Shown here piece by piece: positions 31,342-48,765 of a stretch of DNA of 64,000 nt. The translations under genes were made by a program, and so were the position numbers. The stretch's first letter is position 1; each line of letters opens with the position of its first letter. The notes below the pieces were generated by a model, which saw only the letters and a program-made list of their open reading frames with translations, had not been told where the DNA came from and did no database searches. The stretch is from the NCBI GenBank assembly GCA_019084245.1, contig JAHRFE010000024.1, positions 1-64,000 of the forward strand, given 5' to 3'. This stretch comes from Hoeflea sp. (GTDB lineage Bacteria > Pseudomonadota > Alphaproteobacteria > Rhizobiales > Rhizobiaceae).

Positions 31342-31380
31342 CTTGACATTCCAGCCTAACTGCTGAACGATCATTCAATA
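31342..31380 (+). promoter_or_regulatory. Promoter and operator of the ABC importer operon
   Basis: CTTGACA at 31342-31348 is a good rhizobial -35. The 18-nt shared operator CTGAACGATCATTCAATA at 31363-31380 overlaps the region where the -10 should lie, fitting repression by a TetR-type protein. The start codon is 110 bases downstream. Confidence 0.6.
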
Positions 31381-31490
31381 TCCATCTGCCTGAAAAATGG
31401 TGAAAATTGCATAGTCTCAAGGCCTTGCAGCGCCGGTGATCGTTTGACGCGGTTGGTCCTGATAAAGTGCAGAGTATTCAAGGAGCGCCT

Positions 31491-32618
31491 TTGAACACCT
31501 CGACACCATCCTCCACGCAAGAGCCCTCGTCAACGCAAGCTCCCTGCGCGGTCTCGGCCCGCTCGCTGAGCAAGGTGTTTGGCTCAGGCTCCAACGCCTT
31601 CAAGGCACTGGACAATGTGTCGGTGGACATTCGGGAGAATGAGTTCTTCACCCTGCTCGGACCGTCAGGCTGCGGCAAGACCACCCTGTTGCGGCTGATC
31701 GCGGGCTTTGAGCAGCCCACTTCAGGCGAGGTCCTGCTTGACGGCGAAGATCTGTCCGCCAAGCCGCCCTATCAGCGCCCGGTCAACACGGTGTTCCAGA
31801 ACTACGCGCTGTTTCCGCACATGACGGTGGCCGAGAACATCTCGTTCGGGCTCGAGATGCTCGGCCGTCCGAAAGACCAGATCAAGTCGGTGACGGCGAA
31901 CATGCTGCGGCTGGTTCAGCTTGAAGCCATGGCCGACCGGCGGATCACCCAGATTTCCGGTGGTCAGCAGCAGCGCGTGGCGCTGGCGCGCGCGCTTGCG
32001 CCGCAGCCCAAGGTTCTGTTGCTCGACGAGCCGCTGTCGGCGCTCGATCTGCAATTGCGCAAGGAAATGCAGCTGGAACTCAAGCGGCTGCAGACCGACA
32101 CCGGCATCACCTTCGTGTTCGTGACCCATGACCAGGACGAGGCGCTGACCATGTCCGACCGGATCGCGGTGATGAATGGCGGAAAGATCCTGCAGATTGG
32201 AACGCCGCGCGAGATCTACGACAAGCCGCAGCACCGCTTCGTCGCGGGCTTCATCGGAGAGATCAATCTGGTGCCGGTCGAGGCAATGGGGGCCCATGAC
32301 TACGCCATCGCCGGCGTAGGAAGCCTGCGCTCCGATGAGGCGTCGGTGGTGCCGAAGGGCGATCATGCGGTGCTGGCGATCCGGCCGGAACGCATCGCCC
32401 TTTCGGCGCCGGGGCCAGGCAAGCTGCCCGGGGTCGTCACCAATGTGGTGTATCACGGCACCGACACGATCTTTCACATCAGGCTGGCCGACGGGCTGGA
32501 ACTCAGGGCCCGTTCCCAGAACAACACCGCCCGGATCCAGTCCTTCGCCAAGGGCGACCAGATCGGCTGGACTGTCGATGCCGCCTCGGTCTCCGTCCTG
32601 GCCGACGACCCGTCATGA
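31491..32618 (+). CDS. Polyamine-type ABC importer, ATP-binding protein
   Basis: 375 aa using TTG at 31491, six bases after a full AAGGAG; a GTG at 31467 lacks this. PotA/PotG-like order: Walker [11 protein letters not shown]-loop [13 protein letters not shown], signature [15 protein letters not shown], Walker [14 protein letters not shown]-loop [14 protein letters not shown], then a C-terminal TOBE domain (about 270-370). Drives import through the two permeases that follow. It overlaps the first permease by four bases. Polyamine-type importers also carry betaines, opines and other amines. Confidence 0.93.
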
Positions 32619-33511
32619 CAAGGGCCGGTAAGAACATCCTGTTTCGCGCGCTGCTGATCGGGCCTGCGCTGCTGGCGATCACGGTCTTCATGATCATTCC
32701 GCTGGGCCTGATGGCCTATATCTCGTTCCGGGGCAGGGACTATTCGGGCGGGGTGCTATGGGATCAGTTCACCGCGGAGGCCTATGTACGGCTGTTCTTC
32801 GAAAGTGAGCTCGACGGCACGCTGGCGCTGAACTTCAACTATATGTACATCATCCTGCGCTCGGTGTGGCTGAGTTTTCTCACCATGGTGATTTCGCTCG
32901 CCGTCGGCCTGCCGGTGGCGATGTTCATGGCGACACGGGACGCCAAGTGGAAAGCGGTGCTGGTGTTCATGGTGACGCTGCCGTTCTGGACCAATCTCCT
33001 GGTCCGGAACTACGCCTGGATCCTGCTCCTGCGCGATCACGGCATCATCAATTCGGCGCTGCTGTGGCTCGGGATCATCTCCGAGCCGCTGCCGCTGTTG
33101 CACAATTCCTTCGCCGTCGCCGTCGGGCTCACTTATTCCTTCCTGCCGTTCATGGTGCTGCCGATCTATGCAAGCCTCGAGAAGATCGATCTGAGGCTGG
33201 TCGAGGCCTCGTTCGATCTCTATGCCAACCGCTGGCAGACCATCAAGCGGGTCATCCTGCCGCTGGCCTTTCCGGGCATTGTCGCCGGCTGCGTGCTGGT
33301 CTTCGTGCCCGCGCTTGGCGCCTATATCACGCCGGAACTGCTCGGCGGCGGCAAGACGCTGATGATCGGCAACCTGATCGGGTTCCAGTTTGGCGCCGCG
33401 CGCAACTGGCCGTTCGGCGCGGCTTTGGGGATGTTCCTGCTGGCGCTGGTGCTGACCTCGCTGTGGCTTTACGCCCGGCGCTACCGTGGTGACCTGGAGC
33501 GATTGCAATGA
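32615..33511 (+). CDS. Polyamine-type ABC importer, permease 1
   Basis: 298 aa, PotB/PotH-like with six membrane helices. The EAA loop that docks the ATPase is visible as [20 protein letters not shown] followed by [16 protein letters not shown]. The N-terminal helix [20 protein letters not shown] and the extended first loop are typical of this permease class. It overlaps its neighbours by four bases on each side. Confidence 0.93.
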
Positions 33512-34341
33512 AGATCAATCCGTTCCGCAACCGCGCCTTTCCCGGCGACGCCCGGCACTGGCCGGGGCTGTTCACCGCAACGGCGGCGTTCTTCGCCTAT
33601 GTCTATCTGCCGATCCTGATCCTGATCGCGCTGTCCTTCAACGAGAACCGGACGGTGACGATCTGGACCGGATTCTCGCTCGACTGGTACCGGATGGCAT
33701 TTTCCAACCGCGACATTGTCAGCGCCGCGACCAATTCGCTGATCATCGCCTCGGTCGCCTCGGTGAGTGCGACGACGCTGGCGACGCTGGCCGCGCTGAG
33801 GATGGCGAGCAACGACCGGTTTCTGGGCAAGACCGGGATCAATGCGGTGTTCGCGCTGCCGATCACGGTGCCCGAGATCGTGCCGGCGGTGGCGACCCTG
33901 ATGTTCTTTGCGAGCCTCGGCTTCACCTTCGGGCTCGGCACGGTGATCATCGGCCATATCGTGTTCTGCATTCCGTTTGCCTATCTGCCGATCCGGGCGC
34001 GGCTTGAAGGCATGGACCCGAAGATCGGCGAGGCGGCGGCGGATCTCTACGCCAATCCGGTGCAGGCCTTCTGGCGGGTGACGTTGCCGCAGCTTGTTCC
34101 GGGGATTCTCTCGGGCCTGGTGCTGGCCTTCATCATCTCGCTCGATGATTTCGTCACCACATTCTTCCTCGGCGGTGCGGGTTCGACCACATTGCCGATC
34201 TATATCTTCGGTCTGGTGAGAACCGGCGTCACCCCGGAGGTCAACGCGATCTCCTCGCTGATGCTGCTCTTGTCGCTCTCTTTAGTCTCCCTGTCGCTGT
34301 TTCTGGGACGGGATCAAAATCGGAAAACCGGGCCCGATTGA
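33508..34341 (+). CDS. Polyamine-type ABC importer, permease 2
   Basis: 277 aa, PotC/PotI-like, six membrane helices. The EAA loop reads GEAAADLYANPVQAFWRVT then LPQLVPGILSGLVLAF; ISLDDFVTTFFLGGAGSTTL is a strong PotC-type signature. Together with permease 1 it forms the heterodimeric channel. The substrate-binding protein gene starts 33 bases downstream. Confidence 0.93.
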   Translation: MKINPFRNRAFPGDARHWPGLFTATAAFFAYVYLPILILIALSFNENRTVTIWTGFSLDWYRMAFSNRDIVSAATNSLIIASVASVSATTLATLAALRMASNDRFLGKTGINAVFALPITVPEIVPAVATLMFFASLGFTFGLGTVIIGHIVFCIPFAYLPIRARLEGMDPKIGEAAADLYANPVQAFWRVTLPQLVPGILSGLVLAFIISLDDFVTTFFLGGAGSTTLPIYIFGLVRTGVTPEVNAISSLMLLLSLSLVSLSLFLGRDQNRKTGPD

Positions 34342-34374
34342 GACGTCAAAGCCCGCACACAATTGGAGAACATC

Positions 34375-35442
34375 ATGAACACCACCAACAGGGTAGGAAA
34401 GCATACAGCCAAACTGCTGATGGCTTCGGCCATGGCTCTGACCGCACTGAGCGGCAGCGCATGGGCCGCAGGCGAACTCAATCTTTACAACTGGTCGAAC
34501 TATTTCGCGCCGGAACTGCTTGAACGCTACGAGAAGGAAACCGGCACCAAGGTCAACATCGACAGCTTTGCCTCGGAAGAGGACCTTCTGGCCAAGCTGC
34601 AGGCCGGCGGCGGCGGCTATGACGTGATCTTTCCCGGCACCACCACGCTCGGCGTGATGGTGGAAAAGGGCATGCTGGCCAAGATCGACGTCAACAAGAT
34701 GGAGAACTTCAAGAATCTGCTGCCGGCCTTCACCACCATCGCCGGCGATGAGGATCGTACCTATTCCGCGCCCTACATGTGGGGCACGACCGGCTTCACC
34801 TACGATCCGGAAATGGTAGAGGGCGGCCCGCTCGAGGACAGCTGGAAGGAAATCTTCGAGCCCAGGGACGGCCTCAAAGGCAATATCGCCATGCTCAACG
34901 AGATGTCGGATGTCTGGAATGCTGCGGCCTATTACACCGGCGTCAGCAAGTGCACCGAGGACCCGGCCGAGGCCCAGAAGATCCTCGACGTGCTGATGGC
35001 GCAGAAGCCGCATGTGAAGCTCTATTCCAACGACGGCACCATCGACCGGATGATCGCCGGCGAAGTGGCGGTTCACATGCAGTGGAATGGCGCGGCGCAC
35101 CGGGTCAAGGAAAAGAAGCCCGATGCTGTCTACGTCTATCCCAGGGAAGGCACCACCTTCTGGACCGATGTCATCGCGGTGCCGAAGGACGCGCCGAACC
35201 TCGAGGAGGCGAAGAAATTCGTCAACTGGATGATGTCGCCGGAAGTCGCGGCGATCGCATCGAACTACACCGGCTATTCCAACGCGGTGTCGGGTTCGGG
35301 CGAGTTCCTGAAGGAGGATCTGAGGGCCGATCCGGCCGTCAACACGCCCGAGGAATACAATGACCGGCTGCGGGCGTTCGAGAACTGCTCGCCGGCGTCC
35401 AAGGACCTGCGCGAGAAGGTCTGGACCAAGCTCAAGTCGTAA
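34375..35442 (+). CDS. Polyamine-type ABC importer, periplasmic binding protein
   Basis: 355 aa, PotD/PotF family, from the ATG at 34375 with GGAGA five bases upstream. A signal peptide ends at LSGSAWAAG. The mature protein starts ELNLYNWSNYFAPELLERYE, the family hallmark, and has GGYDVIFPGTTTLGVMV and YMWGTTGFTYDPEMV in the binding cleft. Which amine it binds cannot be decided from sequence; the polyamine-binding acidic residues are only partly recognisable. A strong terminator follows. Confidence 0.93.
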   Translation: MNTTNRVGKHTAKLLMASAMALTALSGSAWAAGELNLYNWSNYFAPELLERYEKETGTKVNIDSFASEEDLLAKLQAGGGGYDVIFPGTTTLGVMVEKGMLAKIDVNKMENFKNLLPAFTTIAGDEDRTYSAPYMWGTTGFTYDPEMVEGGPLEDSWKEIFEPRDGLKGNIAMLNEMSDVWNAAAYYTGVSKCTEDPAEAQKILDVLMAQKPHVKLYSNDGTIDRMIAGEVAVHMQWNGAAHRVKEKKPDAVYVYPREGTTFWTDVIAVPKDAPNLEEAKKFVNWMMSPEVAAIASNYTGYSNAVSGSGEFLKEDLRADPAVNTPEEYNDRLRAFENCSPASKDLREKVWTKLKS

Positions 35443-35499: not shown

Positions 35500-35727
35500 C
35501 TATTCGTCTGGCGACCGGCGCGACCGGGCGACGGCGTCGGGGTCCTCGGAATCGAGGTTGCAGCAGATGCGGTAGGCTTCGAGCAGGTCGGCGTCCAGCT
35601 TGCCGGATCGGTAGAAATACATCGCCGCGCCGTAGCGGGCCATGCCCGAGCCGGGCGCGCCCAGCGGCAGGCGGAGCAGGGCAAGCTGCTCCCGGTCTTC
35701 CGGTGTTTCGGCCTCGATAGGCTGCAT
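35500..35727 (-). CDS. 75-aa conserved-looking small protein, unknown
   Basis: The frame beginning MQPIEAETPEDREQLAL has GGAGAGG four bases before the ATG. It is short, acidic and probably cytoplasmic, with an amphipathic helix DADLLEAYRICCNLDSEDP near the C-terminus. I do not recognise a family. It is the last gene of the four-gene oxidoreductase operon, 32 bases after the GcvT-like gene, so a role as a small subunit or assembly partner is plausible but unproven. Confidence 0.65.
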   Translation of the reverse strand: MQPIEAETPEDREQLALLRLPLGAPGSGMARYGAAMYFYRSGKLDADLLEAYRICCNLDSEDPDAVARSRRSPDE

Positions 35728-35759
35728 AGTCCTCTCCCCTGGCCGGACGGCCCGGTCCC

Positions 35760-36965
35760 TCAGTAGTCGCCCGGCGGTGTGGCCGTGCGGCGCGGGTGCA
35801 CGAAGAAGGGCTTGTCGACCAGCTGGCAGCGCGCCATGCGCCGTTGCCAGCGGATTTCCTTCTGAAGATAGATCTCGACCCACAGATCGCCGGTGACCGA
35901 CTGGCCATAGGGCGCATCGAGCCAAGCGTAGGCGATGTTGCGCTTGCAGGTGGGCGACCACAATGCGGAGGTGACCATGCCGACTTGGCGGGTCTTCTTG
36001 TGATAGACCAGCGCGTTGTGGGCCGGCTTGTCGCGCTCGATCTCGATCGCCACCAATTTTCGGCGCGGGGTCTTTTTGGAAAGGTCCAGCAGCGCGCGGC
36101 GGCCATTGAAATGCGGCTTGTCGAGCGCCACCAGCCAGTCGAGGCCAAGCTCATAGGGCGTGCTGGCGCGGTCGGTCCGGAGTACGGTCTGGGCCGAGAG
36201 GAAATCGACCTTCGGCAGCAGGAAGCCCGCCTCGATGCGGGCCATCTCCAGCGCCTCGTAGCCGATGATGCGCAGGCCGCGGAGCTTGCCCGCCGCCATC
36301 AGCGCGTCCCAGACGGTGAGCGCGTCGGCAGGCTTGATCCACAGCTCGTAGCCGAGATCGCCGGTGAAGCCGGTGCGGGAGATGCTGACCGTGGCGCCGG
36401 CGATGATAAATTCGGCGATGCCGAAGGGTTTGAGCGTTTCGATGCCGGTGAGTCCCAGGTCCTTGAGCAGGGCGCAGGAGGTCGGGCCCTGCAGCGCCAG
36501 ACCCGCGACTTCGCGGGTGACGTCGCGGATTTGGACGTCGAAGCCCCAGGCGATGTCTTCGAGCCAGGAGAGCTGCGGCTCCTGGCAGCAGAGGCGGAAC
36601 TCGGTTTCGGAATAGCGGAACACGGTGCCGTCATCAACGACCTGGCCGTCCTCGTCGCACCAGATGCAATAGGCGACGCGGCCGAGCCCGAGCTTGCGGA
36701 TGTCGCGGGTGACCAGCCGGTTGACCACCCTTTCCGCGTCCGGGCCGGTGATGGCGTATTTGCACATCGGCGAGATGTCGAACAGGGTCGACTGGTTACG
36801 GATGGCGAAATACTCGAACTCGACCGTGTCGAGCACGGAGGGCGAGGCGTAGCCCATCCAGTTGACCCAGGATTGCTGGCGGTTGTGCGCGACAAGGCGC
36901 TCGTGAAACGGGCCGGGTTCGAGGCCCAGATGCACCTGTGCGACAGGGTTTGCTGTGGCTGCCAT
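35760..36965 (-). CDS. GcvT-like aminomethyltransferase/demethylase family protein
   Basis: 401 aa from the ATG at 36965, which starts one base after the preceding stop. GcvT fold: ISPMCKYAITGPDAERVVNR, a central ALQGPTSCALLKDLGL, and RTGFTGDLGYELWI, the tetrahydrofolate-binding motif region (SRTGFTGxxGYE). The C-terminal barrel ends with WSPTCKRNIAYAWLDA. The family includes glycine-cleavage T protein, dimethylglycine and sarcosine oxidases and DMSP demethylase, all moving one-carbon units to tetrahydrofolate. With two FAD oxidoreductases beside it, a demethylation role is likely. Confidence 0.88.
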   Translation of the reverse strand: MAATANPVAQVHLGLEPGPFHERLVAHNRQQSWVNWMGYASPSVLDTVEFEYFAIRNQSTLFDISPMCKYAITGPDAERVVNRLVTRDIRKLGLGRVAYCIWCDEDGQVVDDGTVFRYSETEFRLCCQEPQLSWLEDIAWGFDVQIRDVTREVAGLALQGPTSCALLKDLGLTGIETLKPFGIAEFIIAGATVSISRTGFTGDLGYELWIKPADALTVWDALMAAGKLRGLRIIGYEALEMARIEAGFLLPKVDFLSAQTVLRTDRASTPYELGLDWLVALDKPHFNGRRALLDLSKKTPRRKLVAIEIERDKPAHNALVYHKKTRQVGMVTSALWSPTCKRNIAYAWLDAPYGQSVTGDLWVEIYLQKEIRWQRRMARCQLVDKPFFVHPRRTATPPGDY

Positions 36966-36966
36966 C

Positions 36967-38478
36967 TCAGTGTCCCCCGTCGCGAAGGGCGGCGCGGGCC
37001 GCGTTGAAACCGGCGGCGCCGGAAATGTCGCCGCCGGGATGGGCGCCCGCGCCACAGAGATAAAGGCCCGCCACCGGCATCCGGTACTGCGCGGCGCCGT
37101 CGAACGGCCGCAGCATCAGCAGCTGGTCGACGCGCAATTCGCCGTGATGCCAGTGCCCGCCGTAAGCGCCGTAGCCCACTTCGATGTCGACGGGCGACAT
37201 CACGCGGGTTCCGTGGACCGTGGGAGCGATGCCGGGCAGGGCGTCGTCCAGTACCGTGAGGACGGAGGTCGAGAGCCTTGCCTTGGCGTCGTCGGTCCAG
37301 CCGCCGGTGAGATCATGCGGCGCGAACTGGGCGCTGACCGAGAGCCGCCTGGCTGCGCCGTCATAGGTGGCTTCGAGCACCGGACGGTTGGGCAGATTGC
37401 CATATTTGGCGGCGTTGAAGGCGGTTTCGATCGCCTGCATGGTGGGCGCCACCACGAGGCGCTGGCCGGAAGTGAGCGCGCCGCCGCCGCGCAGCTTTGG
37501 CGGTTCCACGATGTCGAAATCGAGGCGCGCGACCATGCCCTTCGAGGCCGAGGTGCGGCAGCGGCGGACGAACTCGCCGTCGAGATGGGCGACGCCCAGC
37601 AGCGTGAGCAGCGTCACCTTCGGCGAGGCGTTGGAGAGCACCAGCGGGGCCGCAATCTCTTCGCCGGATGCCAGCCGCACGCCGGCGGCCCGATCGCCAT
37701 CGACCAGGATCTTTTCCACCGGCGCACCGGTGCGGATCCCGCCGCCGGCGGCGGTGACGCAGTCGGCGAGCGCCTTGACCAGCGCGTCGGGACCGCCTTC
37801 GGGCATCACCCGCAGGCCATGGCCATGGGACGACTGCGAGGCCATGCGGTAGAGCAGGGTCAGCACGGTGCCGGGCGAACGCGGGCCCATGGCGCCGCCA
37901 AGGGTTGCGTCCATGGCGAGCGCGCCTGCCAGCGGGCCGTCGCCGATTTCGTCATTCAGCAGGTCCCAGACATTGGACAGCACGATGCGCAGCAGGTCGC
38001 GCATCTCCGTCTTGCCGAGCAAGCGCAGCTTGAGCGCCATGCGGGCCAGCGCCGTCGCTTCACCGAGGCTCGCCTTGCCGAGCCCGGGCGGGGTCTCGAG
38101 AATCATCGCGCCGAGCACTTTTGCCTGCCGCCCGAGCCGGGCATAAAGCGCGCCGTAGTCATGTTCCGTGATGGCGTCGGTGCCGGTCACATGTCCGCCG
38201 GTGATGCGGAGCGGCTGGCCGTCGGCGCCGAAGGTCAGGGTCTCGAGCGGCCTGGTGCCGTGCAGCAGTTTCTGGTCGAGTTGCAGCGCCTTGATGATTT
38301 CCGGGCGCAGCGCGTAGGGCAGGGGCGCCACGCGAAACTCCGCGTCGCCGAGCATGCCGCCGAGATGATCGCGGGCTTCGAGCACCAGCACCTTCCTGCC
38401 CTTGCGGGCAAGCGTTGCGGCGGCGACCAGGCCGTTGTGGCCGGCGCCGATGATGATGGCGTCGTAGCGCGGGCTCAT
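36967..38478 (-). CDS. CrtI-like FAD/NAD(P)-dependent oxidoreductase, second copy
   Basis: 503 aa from the ATG at 38478, which overlaps the preceding gene's stop by four bases. N-terminal FAD motif AIIIGAGHNGLVAAATLARK, the GG-doublet region LGGMLGDAEFRVAPL, and a C-terminal LYLCGAGAHPGGDISGAAGF that closes the FAD site. This places it in the phytoene desaturase/PYROXD2-like superfamily. No other carotenoid gene is nearby and the partners are a GcvT-like protein and an amine importer, so carotenoid synthesis is unlikely. Confidence 0.87.
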   Translation of the reverse strand: MSPRYDAIIIGAGHNGLVAAATLARKGRKVLVLEARDHLGGMLGDAEFRVAPLPYALRPEIIKALQLDQKLLHGTRPLETLTFGADGQPLRITGGHVTGTDAITEHDYGALYARLGRQAKVLGAMILETPPGLGKASLGEATALARMALKLRLLGKTEMRDLLRIVLSNVWDLLNDEIGDGPLAGALAMDATLGGAMGPRSPGTVLTLLYRMASQSSHGHGLRVMPEGGPDALVKALADCVTAAGGGIRTGAPVEKILVDGDRAAGVRLASGEEIAAPLVLSNASPKVTLLTLLGVAHLDGEFVRRCRTSASKGMVARLDFDIVEPPKLRGGGALTSGQRLVVAPTMQAIETAFNAAKYGNLPNRPVLEATYDGAARRLSVSAQFAPHDLTGGWTDDAKARLSTSVLTVLDDALPGIAPTVHGTRVMSPVDIEVGYGAYGGHWHHGELRVDQLLMLRPFDGAAQYRMPVAGLYLCGAGAHPGGDISGAAGFNAARAALRDGGH

Positions 38479-40079: not shown

Positions 40080-40112
40080 GGCCGGTCCCGGATTGGTAAA
40101 ATCCAAGGCTAG

Positions 40113-40130
40113 AATAAACTGAGCGTTCAG
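40113..40130 (-). promoter_or_regulatory. Shared 18-nt operator, oxidoreductase operon/TetR intergenic region
   Basis: On the minus strand CTGAACGCTCAGTTTATT, containing a perfect ACTGA-ACGC-TCAGT dyad. It lies between the -35 (TTGACT) and -10 (CTAGCC) of the oxidoreductase operon and 150 bases upstream of the divergent TetR gene. Confidence 0.65.
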
Positions 40131-40279
40131 TCAAAAAATTTGTTCCGCAAAGTTTTCGCGGCCTGCGCCCGGGCGCCTGCGCTCGATGGAATACCCGGCG
40201 CTCCGGTGCGCTCACCTGCTGCATAATTTGATTGCGGGAACCGATTCCGCTTTGCGCAAATATGCAGTAGACAGGGGGC

Positions 40280-40900
40280 ATGTCACACCCGGCCGATGTC
40301 CAGAAGATCTCTCCCACCAGCCTGCGCACCCAGGCCCGGATGATCGAGGCCGTGGTCGATGTGGTGGCCCAGCATGGCATCTCCGGCACCACCTTCGCCA
40401 ATGTCTCGGCGGCGGCGGGTGTGTCCCAGGGCGCGCTGGTGTTTCACTTCAAGACCAAGGAAGGCCTGCTGACGGAAACCCTGTCGCGGCTGCTGCAGGA
40501 ATACGAGCAGGCGTGGAGCGCGGCGTTCGCATCGCCTGATCCGCTGGACCGGATCCTCGGTCTCATTCGCGCCGATTTCAAGCCGTCGATCTGCAGCCGC
40601 AAGAAGCTGGCGTTGTGGTTTTCGTTCTGGGGCGAGGCCGGGGTGCAGCCGCTTTACAACAGGATCTGCGTCGCCGCCGAGGATGTCCGTCACCAGGCGA
40701 TGCTGGGCAGTTGCAGTGAACTGGTGGAGACCACAGGCGGCCCCGACCCGGTCCTGCTGACCAATTCGATCGACGCCTTCACCGACGGGTTGTGGCTTCA
40801 GATGCACATCCAGAGCCAGCCGATCACCCGGGCCGAAGCGCTCGACTCGGCGCTGGCGCATCTGCGGCTGCTGCTGCCGCATCACGCCGGCCGGATCTGA
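40280..40900 (+). CDS. BetI-like TetR-family regulator 1
   Basis: 206 aa. N-terminal TetR HTH: QARMIEAVVDVVAQHGISGT, TFANVSAAAGVSQGALVFHF with recognition helix GVSQGALVFHFKTKEGLL. The C-terminal ligand domain resembles BetI, the choline/betaine regulator. It is divergent from the oxidoreductase operon, and the shared operator stands in the gap, so it is a candidate master repressor of the 31-49 kb regulon. AGGGGG precedes the ATG closely. Confidence 0.88.
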   Translation: MSHPADVQKISPTSLRTQARMIEAVVDVVAQHGISGTTFANVSAAAGVSQGALVFHFKTKEGLLTETLSRLLQEYEQAWSAAFASPDPLDRILGLIRADFKPSICSRKKLALWFSFWGEAGVQPLYNRICVAAEDVRHQAMLGSCSELVETTGGPDPVLLTNSIDAFTDGLWLQMHIQSQPITRAEALDSALAHLRLLLPHHAGRI

Positions 40901-41047: not shown

Positions 41048-41065
41048 TATTGAATGAACGTTCAA
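41048..41065 (-). promoter_or_regulatory. Shared 18-nt operator upstream of the methyltransferase
   Basis: Minus-strand reading TTGAACGTTCATTCAATA; contains the perfect palindrome TGAACGTTCA. It lies 74 bases before the methyltransferase start. Confidence 0.65.
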
Positions 41066-41138: not shown

Positions 41139-41984
41139 ATGCGAGATGGCATTCCCGATCCGACATCAAAGGCGCCTGCTGTTTCCTCGCCCGTCGAGGC
41201 TGCGCCGGAATATGACGACACCGCGATCCGCTTTCTGGAAGCGCTGTGGGGGGAGGGCTTCCTGTCGCCGGGCGGACCGGACGAGGTCCGCAGGGTTGTC
41301 GCGGATCTGGATTTTGCCGGCAGCCACGTGCTGGACATCGGCTGCGGTTCGGGCGGCATCACCCTGTTCCTGGCCAGGGAATACGGGCCTGCCGAGATCG
41401 TCGGCTATGATGTCGAGCAGCCGGTCGTGGATCTCGCCACGAAGCGCGCCGGCGAGCAGGGCCTTGACGATATCGCCCGTTTCGTGCGCGGCGACCCCGG
41501 GCCGCTGCCGTTTCCCGTCGAGAGCTTCGACATCGTCTTCTCCAAGGACGCGCTCATTAACGTGGCCGACAAGGAGGCGCTGTTCGCCGACATCTTCCGG
41601 CTGCTCAAGCCCGGCGGCGAGTTTGCGGCGAGCGACTGGCTGACCTCGCATGACGGCGATCCGTCCGACGCGATGCGGACCTATCTCGCAGCCGAGGGGC
41701 TGAGTTTCGGCATGGCGTCGGCCGCCCGCTACGAGGCGGCGATGAAGCGCGCCGGTTTTGTCGATGTGCAGACCGTCAACCGGAATGAATGGTACAGGGA
41801 CGTGGCGCGGGGCGAACTCGAGCGCCTCAAGGGTCCGCTCCATGCGCCGGTCGCCGCGGTCGTCGGATCGGACTATGTCGACAAGAACATCAAGACCTGG
41901 AGCGCCATGCAGACGGTGCTCGACAGCGGCGAGCATTGCCCGACCCATCTGTCGGAATTAGGCCGGTTTGACACGCACCCCTGA
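41139..41984 (+). CDS. Class I SAM-dependent methyltransferase
   Basis: 281 aa. SAM motif I VLDIGCGSGGITLFLAREYG at about residues 64-83, acidic motif II region VGYDVEQPVVDLA, post-motif SFDIVFSKDALINVADKEAL, and LLKPGGEFAASDWL. These parts most resemble phosphoethanolamine and sarcosine/dimethylglycine N-methyltransferases, but the substrate is uncertain. A BetI-like gene follows 17 bases downstream in the same unit, and the shared operator precedes it. Confidence 0.85.
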   Translation: MRDGIPDPTSKAPAVSSPVEAAPEYDDTAIRFLEALWGEGFLSPGGPDEVRRVVADLDFAGSHVLDIGCGSGGITLFLAREYGPAEIVGYDVEQPVVDLATKRAGEQGLDDIARFVRGDPGPLPFPVESFDIVFSKDALINVADKEALFADIFRLLKPGGEFAASDWLTSHDGDPSDAMRTYLAAEGLSFGMASAARYEAAMKRAGFVDVQTVNRNEWYRDVARGELERLKGPLHAPVAAVVGSDYVDKNIKTWSAMQTVLDSGEHCPTHLSELGRFDTHP

Positions 41985-42001: not shown

Positions 42002-42661
42002 TTGAGCGAAGGACATGAACATGAGAATTCCGCGCCGGCGACGGAGGCTGCCCGCCGCCGCGAGCCCAAGGCGCTGCGCCGCGAACAACTGATCAACGCC
42101 ACGATCGATTCACTGGCCAAGCGCGGCTATGCCGCCACCACGCTCGCCGATGTGGCCGATGGCGCGGGATTGTCGCGCGGGATCGTGAATTTCCATTTCG
42201 CCAGCAAGGAAAACCTGCTGGCCGAAACCATCCGGTTCCTGCAAGACGAGTACACCGCCAACTGGCAGGCGACGGTGAAGAAGGCCGCCCCCGACACGGC
42301 GTCGCAACTGCTAGCCATGGTGACGGCGGATCTCGACAAGAAGATCTGCACCCACCGCAAGCTGGCCGCCTGGTTCGCGCTGATCGCCGAGGCACGCTCC
42401 AAGCCCGCCTATCATGAAATGGCTTGGGAACGGGACGCCAAGTACCGCTCGACGCTGACCTCGATCTGCAAGCTTGCCAAGGAAGAAGGCGATTATGCGT
42501 TTGACCCGCAGAGCACGGCGGATGCGATCTACGCCATGCAGGAAGGGTTGTGGCTCAGGATGATGCTGTTTGGCCGCGGCTACAAGCGCGAGGCGGCGCT
42601 CGGCGTCGTGCTCGATACGCTGTGCACGATTTTTCCCATGCACTTCGCGATTGATAAATGA
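42002..42661 (+). CDS. BetI-like TetR-family regulator 2
   Basis: 219 aa from a TTG at 42002, with AAGAGG eight bases upstream. TetR HTH: REQLINATIDSLAKRGYAAT, TLADVADGAGLSRGIVNFHF. Ligand domain BetI-like (KLAAWFALIAEARSKPAYHE). Co-transcribed with the methyltransferase. It is only distantly similar to regulator 1, but the recognition helices share the pattern G-S-x-G-x-V-x-F-H-F, so both may see related operators. The stop is followed at once by AT-rich inserted DNA. Confidence 0.87.
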   Translation: MSEGHEHENSAPATEAARRREPKALRREQLINATIDSLAKRGYAATTLADVADGAGLSRGIVNFHFASKENLLAETIRFLQDEYTANWQATVKKAAPDTASQLLAMVTADLDKKICTHRKLAAWFALIAEARSKPAYHEMAWERDAKYRSTLTSICKLAKEEGDYAFDPQSTADAIYAMQEGLWLRMMLFGRGYKREAALGVVLDTLCTIFPMHFAIDK

Positions 42662-42746: not shown

Positions 42747-43994
42747 ATGGTGGAGCTAAATACTGAAATGAGAAAACTGTTTCACGGGTTGAATGACTCG
42801 AATGGCATTTTTATCTATAATCTACTGATTCCAGTTGAAATTCATTCAGATGCCCAGGATCTATTTCATATTGACGAAACGCGCATATGGAAGAATAAAA
42901 CTGAAAAAATTGAAACGTCACCGATACAATTGAAAATCATAAAGCCATTTTTCGTTGAAAAATTGGTGAGCAGTCATGTGCATGAATATTTCTTTAGAAA
43001 AATATTTTCTGAATATATTGAGAAAATCGATAATTTGAATATAAAAGTTTGTACAGATGGTTGTGGTATTGTTTATATAGATATTTCTGCAAGGCTGGTT
43101 GGAAAAGAAATTTTGGATATAAGAAAAATTCAATATAAAATTCTCTCGGGGGAAAATCATACGGAAGGATTTTGTTTTAATAAGTCAATATTTGAGAACG
43201 ATCTCGATGAGTTGATACTTGAAGTTTTCGGTTTTGTTGTAAATGGTAATTATTCGTTTTTACCAAGTTATTTTGAAAATGTAATATTATACGAGTCTGA
43301 AATAGAAAATCATATAGTTAGTGCAATGAATTTTATGTCGCTTGACGGAGATATTTATTTTGATTCAAATATTAGAAATGAAAATGGAAATAGCTATGTT
43401 TGTGGCAATTATAATATTACAATATTTATAACAGATTCAGATATATTTTTGTACCAACGGTTTAGTGATATTATTCGACATTTATATTTGGGATGGATAT
43501 ATATAAGGCATCTTAGGTCGCAAATTCAAAAGAGTTATTTGGATATTGTTGTAGCTGGAGGAAATAAAAGAGTTAGTGCGGCGGATTATAATAATTTAGT
43601 ATCGAAAATAAATTTAATAAATTCATTTTTATACTTGTCTGATGGAGAGGTTGTATGTGAATGGGGCGATGAATATCAGATTTACAGTGTTTTGTGGCGG
43701 GCTTGGGGAGGTGATAAATTTATTGAAAGCACTCAATCTCTAATTGATAAAGTAAAGACAGCTTTTGAATTTAAATCAAAACAAGAAAATATGAAATACG
43801 AAGGTATTGTTCAGCAAATATTAGGGGTTCTAACCGTTTTCTCAATTTTAGGCGTCGGAGCTCAGATGATAGAATTTATTTCTTCGAATGAAGATCCATC
43901 TAGTGAATACAGATATATAGCATCAATTGTTTTGCTTTCTATTTCTCTTATATTTACAGCTATTATTATTTATATTGGTCGCAGACGAGGGTAG
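42747..43994 (+). CDS. AT-rich gene for a CorA-like membrane-anchored protein, unknown
   Basis: 415 aa (start 42747, or ATG 42768). GC is about 30% by eye, against over 60% in both neighbours, and codon use is wholly different, so it is recently acquired. Residues 1-340 are soluble, rich in Ile, Asn, Tyr and Ser, with no motif I recognise. Residues about 335-355 form a helix (QSLIDKVKTAFEFKSKQENM) leading into two membrane helices (about 357-377 and 392-411), then GRRRG. Helix plus two C-terminal membrane spans is the CorA-like layout, but the GMN motif is absent. A phage-defence effector is possible by analogy only. Confidence 0.75.
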   Translation: MVELNTEMRKLFHGLNDSNGIFIYNLLIPVEIHSDAQDLFHIDETRIWKNKTEKIETSPIQLKIIKPFFVEKLVSSHVHEYFFRKIFSEYIEKIDNLNIKVCTDGCGIVYIDISARLVGKEILDIRKIQYKILSGENHTEGFCFNKSIFENDLDELILEVFGFVVNGNYSFLPSYFENVILYESEIENHIVSAMNFMSLDGDIYFDSNIRNENGNSYVCGNYNITIFITDSDIFLYQRFSDIIRHLYLGWIYIRHLRSQIQKSYLDIVVAGGNKRVSAADYNNLVSKINLINSFLYLSDGEVVCEWGDEYQIYSVLWRAWGGDKFIESTQSLIDKVKTAFEFKSKQENMKYEGIVQQILGVLTVFSILGVGAQMIEFISSNEDPSSEYRYIASIVLLSISLIFTAIIIYIGRRRG

Positions 43995-43998
43995 GGTT

Positions 43999-44092
43999 CT
44001 GGCTTAGTGTCTCGTACTGGTCGTGGGTGACCATGATGAAGGTGATGCCGATCCGGTTGGCGTTATCGCGTTCTATATCATCGATTTCCTTT
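43999..44092 (-). pseudogene. Remnant of an ABC importer ATPase (PotA-like)
   Basis: The minus strand reads NRIGITFIMVTHDQYETLS, the strand and H-loop of an ABC ATPase (compare [14 protein letters not shown] in the intact gene at 31.5 kb). Walker A, signature and Walker B are missing upstream and everything after the H-loop is missing downstream. It directly follows the permease stop, where the ATPase of this operon would be expected, and abuts the AT-rich insert. Confidence 0.8.
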
Positions 44093-44899
44093 TCACGGGC
44101 GAAGCTCCATCTTGCGTTCGGCGCGGCGGCGGAACAGTTCGGCGGCGGTGAGCAGGACGAGGGAGGCGGCGATCAGGATCGAACCGAGCGCCAGCACGTT
44201 CGGCAGCTTGGCGGCAAACCGCAACTGGCCCCAGATATAGACCGGCAGGGTCGGCTCCGTGCCGCTGAGGAAAAAGGCGAGAATGAACTCGTCAAGCGAG
44301 ATGGTGAAGGTGACCAAGAGGCTCGAGACGATCGAGGGGGCAAGCATCGGCAGCGTCACCCGGCGAAGCGTGCCGAAGGCGGTTTCGCCCAGATCGCGCG
44401 AGGCCTCCTCCATGCTCGGATCGAAGCCTTCGAAACCCGAGACCAGGACGGTGACCGAATAGGGCACGCAGATGAGCAGATGGCCGAGGATCACGGTGAT
44501 CAGCGACAGCTCGAGCCCGAGCCCGAGCAGGACCACCAGCAGCGAGATGGCGATGATGATCTCAGGCAGGATCAAGGGCGCCATGATAAGCCCGCTGGCG
44601 GCGCCCAGGCCGCGAAAGCGGTGGCGGGTGATGGCGCGGGCGGCGCAGATGCCGAGCACCGTGCTCAGGAAGGCGGCGCTGACGCCGACGATCAGCGAGT
44701 TCCACGCAGCCCCCAGCATTGCGGCATTGCCCGACAGGCCCTCGTACCATTTCAGCGTGAAGCCCGCGAGCGGCAGCATCGGCGTGGCGGAATCGTTGAC
44801 GGAAAAGATCGGCAGCAGCAGCACCGGGAAATACAGGATCGCCACATAGAAGATCACATAGGTCGACAGCACGCGTCGGGGCGAGGGAAGAAGCTTCAT
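44093..44899 (-). CDS. Second amine-type ABC importer, permease PotC-like
   Basis: 268 aa, six membrane helices. EAA loop: MEEASRDLGETAFGTLRRVT followed by LPMLAPSIVSSLLVTF; TISLDEFILAFFLSGTEPTL matches the PotC/PotI signature. It overlaps the upstream permease by four bases. Its own ATPase gene is reduced to a fragment and no binding protein is seen, so it either works with the ATPase of the importer at 31.5-35.4 kb or is non-functional. Confidence 0.9.
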   Translation of the reverse strand: MKLLPSPRRVLSTYVIFYVAILYFPVLLLPIFSVNDSATPMLPLAGFTLKWYEGLSGNAAMLGAAWNSLIVGVSAAFLSTVLGICAARAITRHRFRGLGAASGLIMAPLILPEIIIAISLLVVLLGLGLELSLITVILGHLLICVPYSVTVLVSGFEGFDPSMEEASRDLGETAFGTLRRVTLPMLAPSIVSSLLVTFTISLDEFILAFFLSGTEPTLPVYIWGQLRFAAKLPNVLALGSILIAASLVLLTAAELFRRRAERKMELRP

Positions 44900-45858
44900 T
44901 TGAAGAGCCTCTTGAGGCCCAGCAGCATGAGAACGATGGCGCCTGCGACCAGGGAGACGATCACCATGGTGGTAACGGCCAGTGCTGCGCCCAGAGGCCA
45001 GTTCGACGCCTTGCCGAACTGCGCCTGGATGGCGTTGGCGATCATCACGCCGTCCTTGCCGCCGACCAGCCTTGGCGTGACGTAATCGCCCACGGTTGGG
45101 ATCATGACGATCAGAAGCGCGGCGATGATGCCGGGCATGGTCAGCGGCAGGGTGACGCGCAGGAACCGCCGCACTGGCCCGTCGCCCAGGTCGGCCGCCG
45201 CCTCGAGCAGCGAGCGGTCGAGCTTTTCGAGCGAGACGAACAGCGGCAGGATGGCGAAGGCGGCCCAGCTGTGGGCAAGGGTGATGATGACGGCGTTGAC
45301 ATTGTAGATCAGCCAGTTGAGCGGCTCGGCGATGACGCCGAGATAGAGCAGGCCCGAATTGAGTACGCCCTTGTAGCCCAGGATCACCTTCCACGACAGG
45401 ATCCGGAGCAGGTAGCCGGACCAGAAGGGGACGGTGATGATGAACAGCCACAGGCCCTTGTAGCGCCCGCCATGAAACGACACGAACCAGGCGACCGGAT
45501 AGGCGAGGATGACGGTGACGAAGGCGACTGTCACCGAGACGAACAGGGAGCGCATCAGCAGGTCGCGGTAGATCGGCTCGGTCAGCGCCGCCTTGTAATT
45601 GTCGAGCGTGAAGGTGCGATCGATGGTCAGATAATCCTGCGTCCAGAAGCTGTGGGTGATGATGACGATGATCGGCCCGATCAGCAGAAGCACGGCGTAG
45701 ATCAGCGGCGGCGAGATGGTCAGCCAGCCCTTGCCGGTCTCGGTCTGCAGGAAGCGCGGGCCGCCTGTCCGGCGGGCCGAGCGCTCGACTGGCAGTGTGG
45801 GGGCAGATGGCTGCAAATGCGCTTCCTCGCCGTGACCGGGCTTGCCGGCGGTTCCCAT
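44896..45858 (-). CDS. Second amine-type ABC importer, permease PotB-like
   Basis: About 320 aa from the ATG at 45858. The start is uncertain: an open frame continues to an ATG at 45990, but that would put the shared operator inside the gene. The first 45 residues are polar, then six helices starting ISPPLIYAVLLLIGPIIVII. EAA loop LLEAAADLGDGPVRRFLRVT, then LPLTMPGIIAALLIVM and PTVGDYVTPRLVGGKDGVMI, typical of PotB/PotH. Divergent from the aminotransferase gene with the operator between them. Confidence 0.88.
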   Translation of the reverse strand: MGTAGKPGHGEEAHLQPSAPTLPVERSARRTGGPRFLQTETGKGWLTISPPLIYAVLLLIGPIIVIITHSFWTQDYLTIDRTFTLDNYKAALTEPIYRDLLMRSLFVSVTVAFVTVILAYPVAWFVSFHGGRYKGLWLFIITVPFWSGYLLRILSWKVILGYKGVLNSGLLYLGVIAEPLNWLIYNVNAVIITLAHSWAAFAILPLFVSLEKLDRSLLEAAADLGDGPVRRFLRVTLPLTMPGIIAALLIVMIPTVGDYVTPRLVGGKDGVMIANAIQAQFGKASNWPLGAALAVTTMVIVSLVAGAIVLMLLGLKRLFK

Positions 45859-45961: not shown

Positions 45962-45979
45962 CTGAACAGCCATTCAATA
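45962..45979 (+). promoter_or_regulatory. Shared 18-nt operator between permease and aminotransferase genes
   Basis: CTGAACAGCCATTCAATA agrees at 15 of 18 positions with the site before the ABC importer operon. TTGACT overlaps its left end as a possible -35. It could govern both divergent units. Confidence 0.65.
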
Positions 45980-46049
45980 AGCTCTGCCAATGGCGCCCTC
46001 GAACCCGTTGAAATCCGGCGCCATCCCTTCGTTTCAGGAATCCCATGTC

Positions 46050-47444
46050 ATGCCCGATACCCAAGCCCTTCTGCACATGAAAGCCACCCAGGATGCGAAG
46101 GATCACCTGATCCAGCCCTGGCCGTCGGCGGGCTCGATCGGCGCGGAAGCCCGCGGCATGCTCGGCTCGGGCGAGGGGATCTATGTGCATGACGACAAGG
46201 GTCGCAAGCTGATCGACGGACCGGCCGGGATGTGGTGCACCAATGTCGGCCACCGCAACCAGGCGCTCGCCGATGCCATGAAGGACCAGGCGCTGGAGCT
46301 GTCCTACAATTCGCCCTGGTACACGTCGAACGAGCCGTCGGCGGAACTGGCGCGGCGGATCGCCGACCATGCGCCCGGCGACCTCAACCATGTGTTCTTC
46401 ACCACCGGCGGATCAACGGCGGTGGAAAGCGCGCTCCGGTTTGCGCAGTTCTACAACAATGTCCGCGGGCTCGAGGGCAAGAAGAAGATCATCTGCCGCG
46501 ATGGCGGCTATCATGGCAGCACCTATCTGTCGGCGAGCCTCAATGGCAGCCAGCGCTCGCGCAACTGGATGGATTTTGCCGACGAGATGATGATCCGGCT
46601 CTCGTGCCCGGATCCGTTCCGCCGCCCCAAGGGGATGAGCCTTGAGGCGTTCCGGGATCAGCTGGTCACGGAGTTCGCCGATGCCGTCACTGAGCATGGC
46701 GCGGAAAACATCGCGGCCTTCGTCGGCGAGCCGATCATGGCCTCGGGCGGGGTGATCGTGCCGCCGGAAGGCTACTTCAAGGCGATCCGCGAGATCTGCA
46801 CCGAGAACGATATCCTGTTCATCGTCGACGAGGTGGTCACCGCTTTCGGTCGGCTCGGGCATGTGTTTGCCTCGGAGGCCTGTTTCGACGTGGTGCCCGA
46901 CATCATCACCTTCGCCAAGGGCGTGACCTCGGGCTATTTTCCTTTGGGCGGCATGGTGGTGTCGGACCGGCTGCTCTCCAGCCTGCGGGCGTCGAACCAT
47001 CCCGAGGCGATGTATGCCCACGGGCTCACCTATTCCAGCCACCCGATCGGCTGTGCGGTGGCGCTCAAGAACTTCGATATCCTCGAGGGCGGTCTTCTGG
47101 ATTACACGCGCGAGATCACGCCCTATTTTCACGAGAAGCTGAAGGCGCTCGAGGAGCTTGAACTGGTCGGCGAGGTGCGCGGCATGGGGCTGATGGCCTG
47201 CATCGAATGCGTCGCCGACCGCGACAGCCACAACCCGATCCGGCTCGACACCGAAGTCGGCGTGCGCATCGACCGCCATTGCCAGGAACTCGGGCTGCTG
47301 CTGCGGCCGCTGGTGCATATGTGCGTGATGTCGCCGCCCCTGGTGATCACCCGCGCGCAGATCGACACCATGGCCGGCATTCTGCATGAGGGGATTTCGC
47401 GCACCATGCGCGACCTGCGCCAGGAGGGCGTCTGGAACGGGTGA
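46050..47444 (+). CDS. Class III (omega) aminotransferase
   Basis: 464 aa from the ATG at 46050, ten bases after AGGA; an in-frame ATG at 45990 has no ribosome site. PLP fold-type I: GPAGMWCTNVGHRNQALADA, FFTTGGSTAVESALRFAQFY, CRDGGYHGSTYLSASLNG, FIVDEVVTAFGRLGHVFASE and the Schiff-base lysine in IITFAKGVTSGYFPLGGMVV. The family uses terminal amines (beta-alanine, taurine, putrescine, GABA) with pyruvate or 2-oxoglutarate. Being in the shared-operator regulon, it probably removes the primary amine from an intermediate. Confidence 0.92.
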   Translation: MPDTQALLHMKATQDAKDHLIQPWPSAGSIGAEARGMLGSGEGIYVHDDKGRKLIDGPAGMWCTNVGHRNQALADAMKDQALELSYNSPWYTSNEPSAELARRIADHAPGDLNHVFFTTGGSTAVESALRFAQFYNNVRGLEGKKKIICRDGGYHGSTYLSASLNGSQRSRNWMDFADEMMIRLSCPDPFRRPKGMSLEAFRDQLVTEFADAVTEHGAENIAAFVGEPIMASGGVIVPPEGYFKAIREICTENDILFIVDEVVTAFGRLGHVFASEACFDVVPDIITFAKGVTSGYFPLGGMVVSDRLLSSLRASNHPEAMYAHGLTYSSHPIGCAVALKNFDILEGGLLDYTREITPYFHEKLKALEELELVGEVRGMGLMACIECVADRDSHNPIRLDTEVGVRIDRHCQELGLLLRPLVHMCVMSPPLVITRAQIDTMAGILHEGISRTMRDLRQEGVWNG

Positions 47445-47475
47445 GCCACACAGTTCAGTATGTGAGGTCAAACGA

Positions 47476-47510
47476 AAAACACCCGCCCGGGTCTCCGGAG
47501 CGGGTGTTTT
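47476..47510. terminator. Bidirectional terminator between aminotransferase and Rieske genes
   Basis: Stem aaaacacccgc / gcgggtgtttt (11 bp) with a 13-base loop; A-run on one side and T-run on the other serve both convergent genes. Confidence 0.85.
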
Positions 47511-47532
47511 CATATCAATCGGTCGTATTGGA

Positions 47533-48735
47533 TCAGCCTTCTGCCGCCATCTCCGCGTTCAGCCGGGCGACATCGTCTTCGTGAGGACGCTGGTCCAGCG
47601 TGGCAACCGGCAGCACCGCACGCAGATGATCGTGGTGGCTGCGCACGCCATATTCGAGATCGGAAAGATAGAAGCCCTTGAAGGCGCTCGAATTCATCGC
47701 CTCGTTCGACCATTCGGTCAGGCGCACGTCCTCGCCCATGGTCTCGGAATCGATGCGCACGGCGAGCTTGCGGGCAACCGTCTGCTGCCTTGTCTCGTCG
47801 CGGTAGCGGTAGATCGCGCCGCGCAGCAGGGTCTCGCCGGTCGACAGCGGGAATTCCTGGTAGAACTGCACCAGCTCCGGCGTCACCGCGATCACGGCAT
47901 TGGGGAACAGCCCGTAATAGACCCAGGCGCGCTTGAGGTAATCCGGCATGCCGGGGCGCGGCTGCATGGCCTTGAGGTAGTTGCGCACGCTCCAGCGCCG
48001 GCCCTTGTCGTTGCACTCGGCATAGGACCGCGACATGCCGTTCACGAACGGCTCGTCGAAATAGGAGCGGCCATAGAGATCCTGCAACGCCGGGTGGGCG
48101 AGCGCCACATGATAGCCCTCATTGTCGACGTCGCGGACCGACTTCCAGTTGACCTTGGAGACCATGGTCCAGATCTCGCCCGCGGGCACCATGTCAGCCA
48201 TGGCGAAATGGCCGATCTCCTCGGCAAAGGGCCTGAAAAGGTCAGCCACGGATGCCTGCGGTCCCTTTTCGAAGCGGACAAAGACAAAGCCGTTCCAGAT
48301 CTCGGCTTCGAGCGGCTGCAATCCGAATTCGACCTTGTCGAGGTCCGGGAAGGACTTGGGCCTTGCTGCGCCACGCAGGGTGCCGTCGAGATTGTAGACC
48401 CAGCCGTGGAACGGGCAGACCAGCGCGCCCTTGCAGGATCCCCTCTCGTCGGCCACGACGCGGGCGCCCCGATGCCGGCACATGTTGTGGAAGGCGCGCA
48501 CCTCGCCATCCGTGCCGCGCACCAGAAGCGCACGCTCGCCGCACATGTCGAAGGCGAGGTAATCACCCGATTCCGGAATATCCGAAATATGGCAGGCGAT
48601 CTGCCAGTGCTTGCGGAACAGCTCCTGCTTCTCAAGCTCCAGAAAGGCATTGCTGTGATAGGTCCAGCCCGGCAGCCCGCACCGGTCCCAGGTCTCGGGG
48701 ATCGATATATCGCGATGGGACATGGGGCTGTTCAT
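47533..48735 (-). CDS. Rieske non-heme iron oxygenase alpha subunit
   Basis: 400 aa from the ATG at 48735. Rieske [2Fe-2S] ligands Cys86/His88 (MCRHRGARV) and Cys107/His110 (CPFHGW) are intact. The mononuclear iron site is at NEGYHVALAHPALQ (His209, His214) with acidic residues just before it that bridge the two centres. Length and sequence style fit the group that demethylates or oxidises quaternary amines (glycine betaine, stachydrine, carnitine) rather than aromatic dioxygenases. No reductase or beta subunit gene is adjacent. A variant of the shared operator precedes it. Confidence 0.9.
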   Translation of the reverse strand: MNSPMSHRDISIPETWDRCGLPGWTYHSNAFLELEKQELFRKHWQIACHISDIPESGDYLAFDMCGERALLVRGTDGEVRAFHNMCRHRGARVVADERGSCKGALVCPFHGWVYNLDGTLRGAARPKSFPDLDKVEFGLQPLEAEIWNGFVFVRFEKGPQASVADLFRPFAEEIGHFAMADMVPAGEIWTMVSKVNWKSVRDVDNEGYHVALAHPALQDLYGRSYFDEPFVNGMSRSYAECNDKGRRWSVRNYLKAMQPRPGMPDYLKRAWVYYGLFPNAVIAVTPELVQFYQEFPLSTGETLLRGAIYRYRDETRQQTVARKLAVRIDSETMGEDVRLTEWSNEAMNSSAFKGFYLSDLEYGVRSHHDHLRAVLPVATLDQRPHEDDVARLNAEMAAEG

Positions 48736-48747
48736 GGGGCACCTGTT

Positions 48748-48765
48748 TTTTGAGTAATTGCTCAG
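48748..48765 (-). promoter_or_regulatory. Shared operator, diverged copy, upstream of the Rieske gene
   Basis: Minus-strand CTGAGCAATTACTCAAAA: a dyad TGAG-N6-CTCA, 13 of 18 positions equal to the site at 31363-31380, 12 bases upstream of the start codon. Confidence 0.5.

Follow-up and report, generated by a model that had tools for sequence, protein, structure and literature searches.

The described systems closest to the locus treated here are BetI, the choline-responsive TetR repressor of the bet genes, the Rieske-type quaternary-amine oxygenases, among which are the Stc2-like demethylases, the GcvT-type proteins with trimethylamine N-oxide (TMAO) demethylase, and the TmaR-controlled trimethylamine genes of roseobacters. 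The locus lies in a 64 kb stretch of DNA, analysed as a whole and called the window below, from contig 41 of the 4.82 Mb genome of a marine Hoeflea (Alphaproteobacteria). It contains a cluster of putative amine-catabolic genes, including two BetI-like TetR genes (tetR1 and tetR2), with short palindromic operators before several of the transcription units. The names ox1, ox2, mtase, TetR1 and TetR2 were coined in this analysis, and all features are collected in Table 1.

Both regulators match TetR_N (41.5 bits for TetR1 and 49.3 for TetR2, cut-off 24) and TetR_C_6 (58.2 and 64.5 bits, cut-off 27). With BetI they share the best NCBIfam model, the TetR_C_6 domain, amine-related neighbouring genes and palindromes at their own genes. 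They differ in that their BetI scores, 96.9 and 109.6 bits, stay far below the cut-off of 201.3, so that neither is BetI proper, and in that the true BetI of the host is encoded elsewhere (C27:313522, 226 bits), with a palindrome just upstream of its gene, TTGATTGAGCAGTCAATCAA (L115, about 2131–2150), that differs from the cluster sites. On these two grounds, control of the cluster by a genuine BetI was rejected.

The Rieske oxygenase has the Rieske and ring-hydroxylase alpha domains of the quaternary-amine oxygenases, its best solved relative being carnitine monooxygenase (E = 1.4e-31), but only residues 22–221 align, and the GbcA score is 141 against a cut-off of 670. The GcvT-like protein shares the GcvT folate-binding domain and the C-terminal barrel with TMAO demethylase and the GcvT-type proteins, but it is a stand-alone protein of 401 amino acids that scores 270 bits with the TMAO demethylase model (cut-off 1100) and 215.5 with that of GcvT (cut-off 300). 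Among the NCBIfam matches listed for the window proteins, only PRK07036 (the aminotransferase) and a polyamine ATP-binding cassette (ABC) ATPase subfamily exceed their cut-offs. The TmaR system (PMC13390433) resembles the present one in that marine methylated-amine catabolism is placed under a local regulator; it differs in concerning trimethylamine and the mgd genes, and the main text of its report contains neither "tetr" nor "palindrom".

The Hoeflea system is probably a TetR-controlled catabolic regulon, of a known kind, attached to a widespread pathway, the cluster being present in Rhizobiaceae, roseobacters, SAR11-type cells and Gammaproteobacteria. No paper on this gene set and no substrate assigned to it was found in the literature searched, in which the coverage of subscription journals was limited, nor were the operator letters found there.

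Operator Classes and TetR Types

A preliminary description of the window had proposed that five transcription units share one 18-nt operator. The present analysis shows instead two operator classes, tied to two types of TetR. The five strings on which the proposal was built are all present in the window at the coordinates and strands given for them, and within the window matches to CTGAACGNTCATTCAATA with up to three mismatches are indeed confined to 31–49 kb (four places versus 0.14, standard deviation 0.38, in shuffled sequences; none of 100 shuffles reaches four). They are not, however, the same sequence. The mismatches to CTGAACGNTCATTCAATA amount to 0 at 31363, 1 at 41048 (minus strand), 2 at 45962, 4 at 40113 (minus strand) and 5 at 48748 (minus strand). 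The 40113 string fits better on the plus strand, at 40119–40136 (3 mismatches), and the actual palindrome there, at 40118–40131, is ACTGAGCGTTCAGT. The three strings at 31363 (importer 1, the potA1 site), 41048 (mtase-tetR2) and 45962 (between permB2 and the aminotransferase gene amt) belong to class A, TTGAATGNNCATTCAA. The site between ox2 and tetR1 differs and is assigned to class B, which reads TTTGAGCGCTCAAA in roseobacter-type loci and ACTGARCGYTCAGT in Hoeflea, and the site before the Rieske gene is intermediate, having drifted. Each regulator has a palindrome beside its own gene or operon, at 40118 for tetR1 and at 41048 for mtase-tetR2, and the same holds in relatives.

The link between operator class and regulator was examined in at least 80 loci around relatives of ox2, with flanks of up to 10 kb. 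The tally covered the 200 bp before ox2, with up to one mismatch for class B and two for class A, and the three loci with an incomplete ox2 (L075, L101, L113) were left out. In the roseobacter-type loci with TetR1 beside ox2, class B is found in 17 of 18 and class A in none; this type includes L050, L052 and L053, labelled Rhodospirillaceae, Geminicoccus and Kiloniella, respectively. The rhizobial-type loci with TetR2 have class A in 16 of 16 cases, and the SAR11-type loci in 10 of 10 (the sequence of L089 ends before its TetR), with class B in none of either; both groups carry TGAATGNNCATTCA upstream of ox2. Among the SAR11-type loci only L094 bears that label; the other nine come from alphaproteobacterial single cells or bins without a label and were grouped with it by gene content and, in eight cases, also by the TetR tree. 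Neither class occurs before ox2 in the five Woeseiaceae-type loci, all of which have TGAATGAATACTCATTCAT beside tetR, or in the 20 usable of 23 other loci, which are mostly gammaproteobacterial. Among 2510 other stretches of the same loci, class A was met 36 times and class B 6 times, some of these being true sites at other genes.

The strongest internal control is given by the roseobacter loci that have both TetRs and both operators. Five roseobacter loci hold both TetR types, and in L071, L074, L077 and L109 the two operators stand at different genes, B preceding tetR1/ox2 and A (0–3 mismatches) preceding tetR2, mtase or the second importer. The fifth, L049, carries A and lacks B.

Of 20 plasmid records that carry an ox2 relative, three were examined once the classes had been defined, and the class forecast from the TetR type was found in two of these three loci. 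The Parasedimentitalea plasmid, with a TetR1-type helix, has an exact class B operator between its TetR and ox2 and another with one mismatch before the binding-protein gene. The Shinella zoogloeoides plasmid, with a TetR2-type helix and from a genus already sampled, has class A at the aminotransferase/permease gap (0 mismatches), at the Rieske gene (2) and at ox2 (3). Chance would give 0.2–1.45 class A matches per new locus at up to three mismatches and 0–0.1 class B matches at up to two.

The recognition-helix region reads GIVNFHF without exception (38/38 rows) in the TetR2 of Hoeflea and of roseobacters and in the rhizobial and SAR11-type proteins. In roseobacter TetR1 it is VAVFYF or VAAFYF in 16 of 17 rows and VLVFYF in one, and in Hoeflea TetR1 it is ALVFHF or VLVFHF (8/8). 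With their matching changes in helix and operator, the TetR types form a natural series for shifts of TetR specificity. A tree built from 70 TetRs and the host BetI, 71 rows in all, was rooted at the midpoint; several of its long branches were flagged, and fifteen matches were left out by the length of their open reading frame (ORF), namely L037, L045, L108 and twelve distant ones. The eight Hoeflea TetR1 and 17 roseobacter rows form one clade of 25 (99/95), while the Hoeflea TetR2 group weakly with rhizobial rows (88/83). The tree fits, without proving it, an order in which class A is the older operator and class B the later one, and the Hoeflea TetR1 gene may have come from the roseobacter side.

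In four gammaproteobacterial loci (L055, L056, L104, L105), TTATATGNNCATTTAA lies about 80–130 bp before the Rieske gene and is perhaps a third operator class.

Conservation and Confinement of the Sites

When the sites were compared in related Hoeflea, they were found to be kept at the same places, unchanged where the flanks had drifted. The comparison rests on eight loci (L035–L042) with an ox2 protein 94–96% identical to that of the window, seven labelled Hoeflea and one, L039, labelled only Alphaproteobacteria. Wherever the stretch is held, the site is present: 8/8 at ox2, 7/7 at mtase, 6/6 at amt and 2/2 at potA1, the last with 0 mismatches in L035 and L037, the sole two loci to cover it. 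The form before ox2 is ACTGAACGCTCAGT in all eight, none of which fits the strict class A or B pattern. The Rieske site takes the forms TGAGTAATTGCTCA, TGAGTGTTCACTCA, TGAGTAGACACTCA and TGAGTATTCACTCA in Hoeflea and TGAATGAACGTTCA in the rhizobial loci with the whole stretch (L063, L066, L069, L070, L102); in Hoeflea it is probably a drifted class A site by its letters, perhaps read by TetR2.

Whole genomes of Hoeflea give a similar picture. Ten were searched, seven of the 11 with a close ox2 and three without. With TGAAYGNTCATTCAATA at up to one mismatch, the mtase site was found in 7/7 and the potA1 site, mostly placed by its distance from ox2, in 6/7 of the ox2-bearing genomes; further matches were a likely amt site in G003 and one stray in G011. 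The 22-mer of the ox2 site has a single copy in every one of the seven, and none of the mtase, potA1 and ox2 site words occurs in the three genomes searched that have no close ox2.

In the host genome, TGAACNNNCATTCAATA gives 14 matches at up to two mismatches versus 3 for the reversed control, and 4 matches at up to one, 3 of which are inside the window. The looser TTGAAYGNNCRTTCAA is unspecific, with 34 places at up to two mismatches, 4 of them in the window, versus 19 for the control. The idea that the sites do not recur at random over the genome therefore survives for tight class A patterns, which are not scattered, and fails for loose patterns, which match at random. Across the family, exact TGAATGNTCATTCAATA is found in 6 of 121 genomes, five of which have a close ox2 at a distance of 8.6–22.8 kb, the sixth (G165) having only a 26% ox2 relative. 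In a set of 28 genomes, composed of all 14 non-Hoeflea members of the same family with a close ox2 and 14 chosen without, exact TGAAYGNNCRTTCAATA occurs at 18 distinct places, 15 of them within 25 kb of ox2 (reversed control, 0), and in 11 of the 14 ox2-bearing genomes versus 1 of the 14 others. The tight class A pattern and the 22-mer of class B are concentrated at the target genes; the loose patterns are not.

Nine near-matches outside the cluster, seven of class A in L151–L156 (part of the 34 places above) and two of class B in L157 and L158, yielded no likely further member of the regulon. In six of these eight loci the match falls within an ORF according to our own ORF calls, whose starts are uncertain, at the ORF start in the case of L153 and L157; in L151 and L156 it is intergenic.

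At C42:135731 (L031, 5731–5747), TTGAACGATCGTTCAT lies between a flavin monooxygenase gene and another TetR gene, and it is taken as a separate operator of the latter. The 17-mer word of this site, TGAACGATCGTTCAATA, is present in five of the seven ox2-bearing Hoeflea genomes and in one of the three others (G002). Palindromes of the form TGAA..TTCA precede TetR genes of the host genome both here and at C14:47281.

Proposed Regulation

The sites had been described as lying on promoters, and this is supported for the Rieske, amt and potA1 sites but not for that of mtase. A promoter scan supports the placement at the Rieske gene, where the palindrome comes directly after TTGACG-N17-TATTTT, alike in L035, L041 and L042. 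At tetR1 the scan called ATGTCA-N18-TAAAAT (40073–40102), with the class B site beginning 16 bases on. Of the 13 calls in the window, many fall inside an AT-rich ORF and none at potA1, mtase or amt. By eye, the amt site comes after a likely -10 and the potA1 site overlaps one, while the mtase class A site stands upstream of TTGCA[AT]-N17-AATA[AC]T in 8/8 Hoeflea sequences compared.

It is likely that the cluster constitutes a catabolic regulon under derepression control, in which two BetI-like TetR repressors, paralogous to each other, act through two operators. TetR2, whose gene accompanies that of the methyltransferase, would bind class A, TTGAATGNNCATTCAA, before mtase-tetR2, importer 1, permB2/aminotransferase and probably the Rieske gene, and TetR1 would bind class B, ACTGARCGYTCAGT, between tetR1 and the ox2-ox1-gcvT operon. 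When the substrate is absent, both would repress. An imported amine or an intermediate, the putative inducer, would enter the TetR_C_6 pocket and release the TetRs. The PotABCD-type importer would take up the compound after derepression, the Rieske oxygenase and the two FAD (flavin adenine dinucleotide) oxidoreductases would oxidise it, the GcvT-like protein would transfer a one-carbon unit to folate, and the aminotransferase would take off the nitrogen. The binding events, the direction of control and the order of the reactions are all predicted from sequence. What had been described as one regulon is real, conserved, local and apparently amine-catabolic, with two BetI-like TetR genes inside; the single shared operator was rejected as stated, because the operator class tracks the adjacent TetR. 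In many other bacteria these genes are likewise preceded by class A or B, and the operators could serve as a sequence tag for the genes of this marine methylated-amine pathway, transporters included, and so help to find its substrate.

Several observations weigh against the regulon with two repressors and two operators. The Rieske site fits neither class well, and the Hoeflea form of class B has 5/14 mismatches to the roseobacter pattern and 4/16 to class A, being assigned to class B because of its place, its spacing and the kinship of TetR1. Loose class B (ACTGARCGYTCAGT at up to two mismatches) matches 15 places in the host genome versus 19 in the control, and the ox2-bearing genomes G085 and G083 each have one exact class A place far from ox2. 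In L049, the one exception among the 18 roseobacter-type loci, the TetR1-type gene has its usual helix but no class B site is present, and the Fuscovulum locus L150 (helix SHGLVLFHF) is without either operator, apart from one chance-level match inside ox1. The Fisher value of 2e-12 for the link between class and TetR is overstated, as loci within a clade share ancestry. In the midpoint-rooted tree the class A TetRs are not one clade, the SAR11-type rows joining Woeseiaceae (94/85) and the roseobacter TetR2 rows joining the TetR1 clade (93/84). Finally, the position of the mtase site upstream of the likely -35 argues against plain repression there.

Alternative Explanations

One alternative is that there is one operator and one regulon, both TetRs or one of them reading all five sites, with the differences as tolerated drift. 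We regard this as unlikely. Both TetRs are BetI-like and their genes are close together, and the mtase class A site (TGA-N8-TCA) contains a perfect TGAACGTTCA, with the TGA-N4-TCA spacing of class B, as the potA1 site contains TGAACGATCA. However, the nested TGA-N4-TCA does not point to double reading, because it is found inside 26/26 rhizobial and SAR11-type class A words, and the amt site is without it. Moreover, wherever either class is found before ox2, it matches the adjacent TetR (43 loci, 17 with B and 26 with A; L049 has neither), and the operators are clearly distinct in the four roseobacter loci where both TetR types co-occur.

An activating role of TetR2 at some promoters, such as that of mtase, combined with repression at others would account for the site upstream of the mtase promoter pair in the Hoeflea sequences. 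We consider it quite improbable: at Rieske, amt and potA1 the site overlaps the likely -10 or follows it closely, the usual place for a repressor, and promoters read by eye are weak evidence. There is only a very slight chance that a regulator encoded elsewhere, e.g., the true BetI, reads the sites while the local TetRs act otherwise, since the TGAA..TTCA palindromes before other TetR genes of the host would be in line with it but the betI palindrome is a different sequence and the mtase, potA1 and ox2 words are missing from the three Hoeflea genomes searched without a close ox2.

Within the reading with two repressors and two operators, we tentatively raise, as a rather doubtful possibility drawn from comparing the operator words, that a repressor lineage switched its operator to a palindrome nested in the old one (TGA-N8-TCA to TGA-N4-TCA). 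Because a TGA-N4-TCA core is already present in the class A words, the ancestor of TetR1 could have made this shift with few recognition-helix changes while retaining its targets. If so, Hoeflea would keep both stages in one cell, with the TetRs perhaps competing on some sites. Such competition on composite sites, taken by itself, seems hardly likely, because the nested core also occurs outside Hoeflea.

Predicted Pathway and the Broken Second Importer

By family match, the genes for the Rieske oxygenase, the GcvT-type protein, the FAD oxidoreductases and the importer are found together, and three annotated plasmids carry similar gene sets. With the class III aminotransferase, this set of predicted functions suggests that an amine is broken down oxidatively. 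Judging from these families, a quaternary amine of the betaine type or an N-methyl amine is the most likely substrate, which may be homarine or another named compound.

The second permease pair of the preliminary description turned out to be the leftover of an importer whose genes for the ATPase and the binding protein have been lost in this strain. In L035 and other relatives, these two genes come after permC2. In the window their potA2/potD2 place is taken by the AT-rich ORF of 415 amino acids, with 30% guanine plus cytosine (GC) versus 62% in the window, which has no Pfam, NCBIfam or PADLOC match. Beside it, 20 residues of a potA2 remnant match the potA2 place of L035, L036, L038 and L040–L042 at 70–75%. 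Importer 2 is probably broken in the window, and permC2/permB2 alone would make no working importer.

In the SAR11-type single-cell locus L092 (8095–20859), the cluster with its class A operators is accompanied by genes for a coenzyme A (CoA) ligase, two acyl-CoA dehydrogenases and a major facilitator superfamily protein, as well as for a protein like crotonobetainyl-CoA hydratase (CaiD-like; 288 bits against a cut-off of 500). These extra genes would be in keeping with a carbon chain like that of carnitine or butyrobetaine.

Other Features of the Locus

Table 1. Position, strand and assignment of the features of the Hoeflea cluster in the window.
Feature	Position	Strand	Remark
Class A operator of importer 1 (potA1)	31363..31380	+	overlaps -10 region expected after TTGACA at 31343, by eye
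Importer 1, PotABCD-like: ATPase, two permeases, binding protein	31467..35442	+	start codon of first gene uncertain
Small ORF of 75 amino acids, after gcvT	35505..35729	-	without Pfam or NCBIfam match
GcvT-like folate-dependent aminomethyltransferase	35760..36965	-	family match
ox1, FAD oxidoreductase, CrtO/phytoene-dehydrogenase-like	36967..38478	-	family match
ox2, FAD oxidoreductase, CrtO/phytoene-dehydrogenase-like	38475..40079	-	anchor for all locus comparisons
Class B operator, Hoeflea form ACTGARCGYTCAGT	40118..40131	.	between divergent ox2 and tetR1
TetR1, TetR_N and BetI-type TetR_C_6	40280..40900	+	recognition helix region SQGALVFHF
Class A operator of mtase-tetR2	41048..41065	-	upstream of conserved TTGCA[AT]-N17-AATA[AC]T pair, by eye
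S-adenosylmethionine-dependent methyltransferase (mtase), class I	41139..41984	+	family match
TetR2, TetR_N and TetR_C_6	42002..42661	+	recognition helix region SRGIVNFHF
AT-rich ORF (30% GC)	42747..43994	+	kind not assigned by family search; occupies potA2/potD2 place of relatives
potA2, short broken remnant	43995..44090	-	residue match to potA2 place of Hoeflea relatives
permC2 and permB2, two permease genes of importer 2	44093..45858	-	family match and relatives
Class A operator, divergent permB2/aminotransferase gap	45962..45979	+	just after likely -10, by eye
Class III aminotransferase (amt)	46050..47444	+	NCBIfam PRK07036, above cut-off
Rieske oxygenase	47533..48735	-	closest characterised kin GbcA, carnitine monooxygenase
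A-like drifted palindrome TGAGTAATTGCTCA	48751..48764	.	directly behind Rieske TTGACG-N17-TATTTT

The small ORF after gcvT has counterparts of 54–74% identity in L035, L037 and L038, and the Shinella plasmid has a small hypothetical gene in the corresponding position. Just beyond the cluster, at 49248–49338 on the minus strand, lies a tRNA-Ser (GCT) gene.

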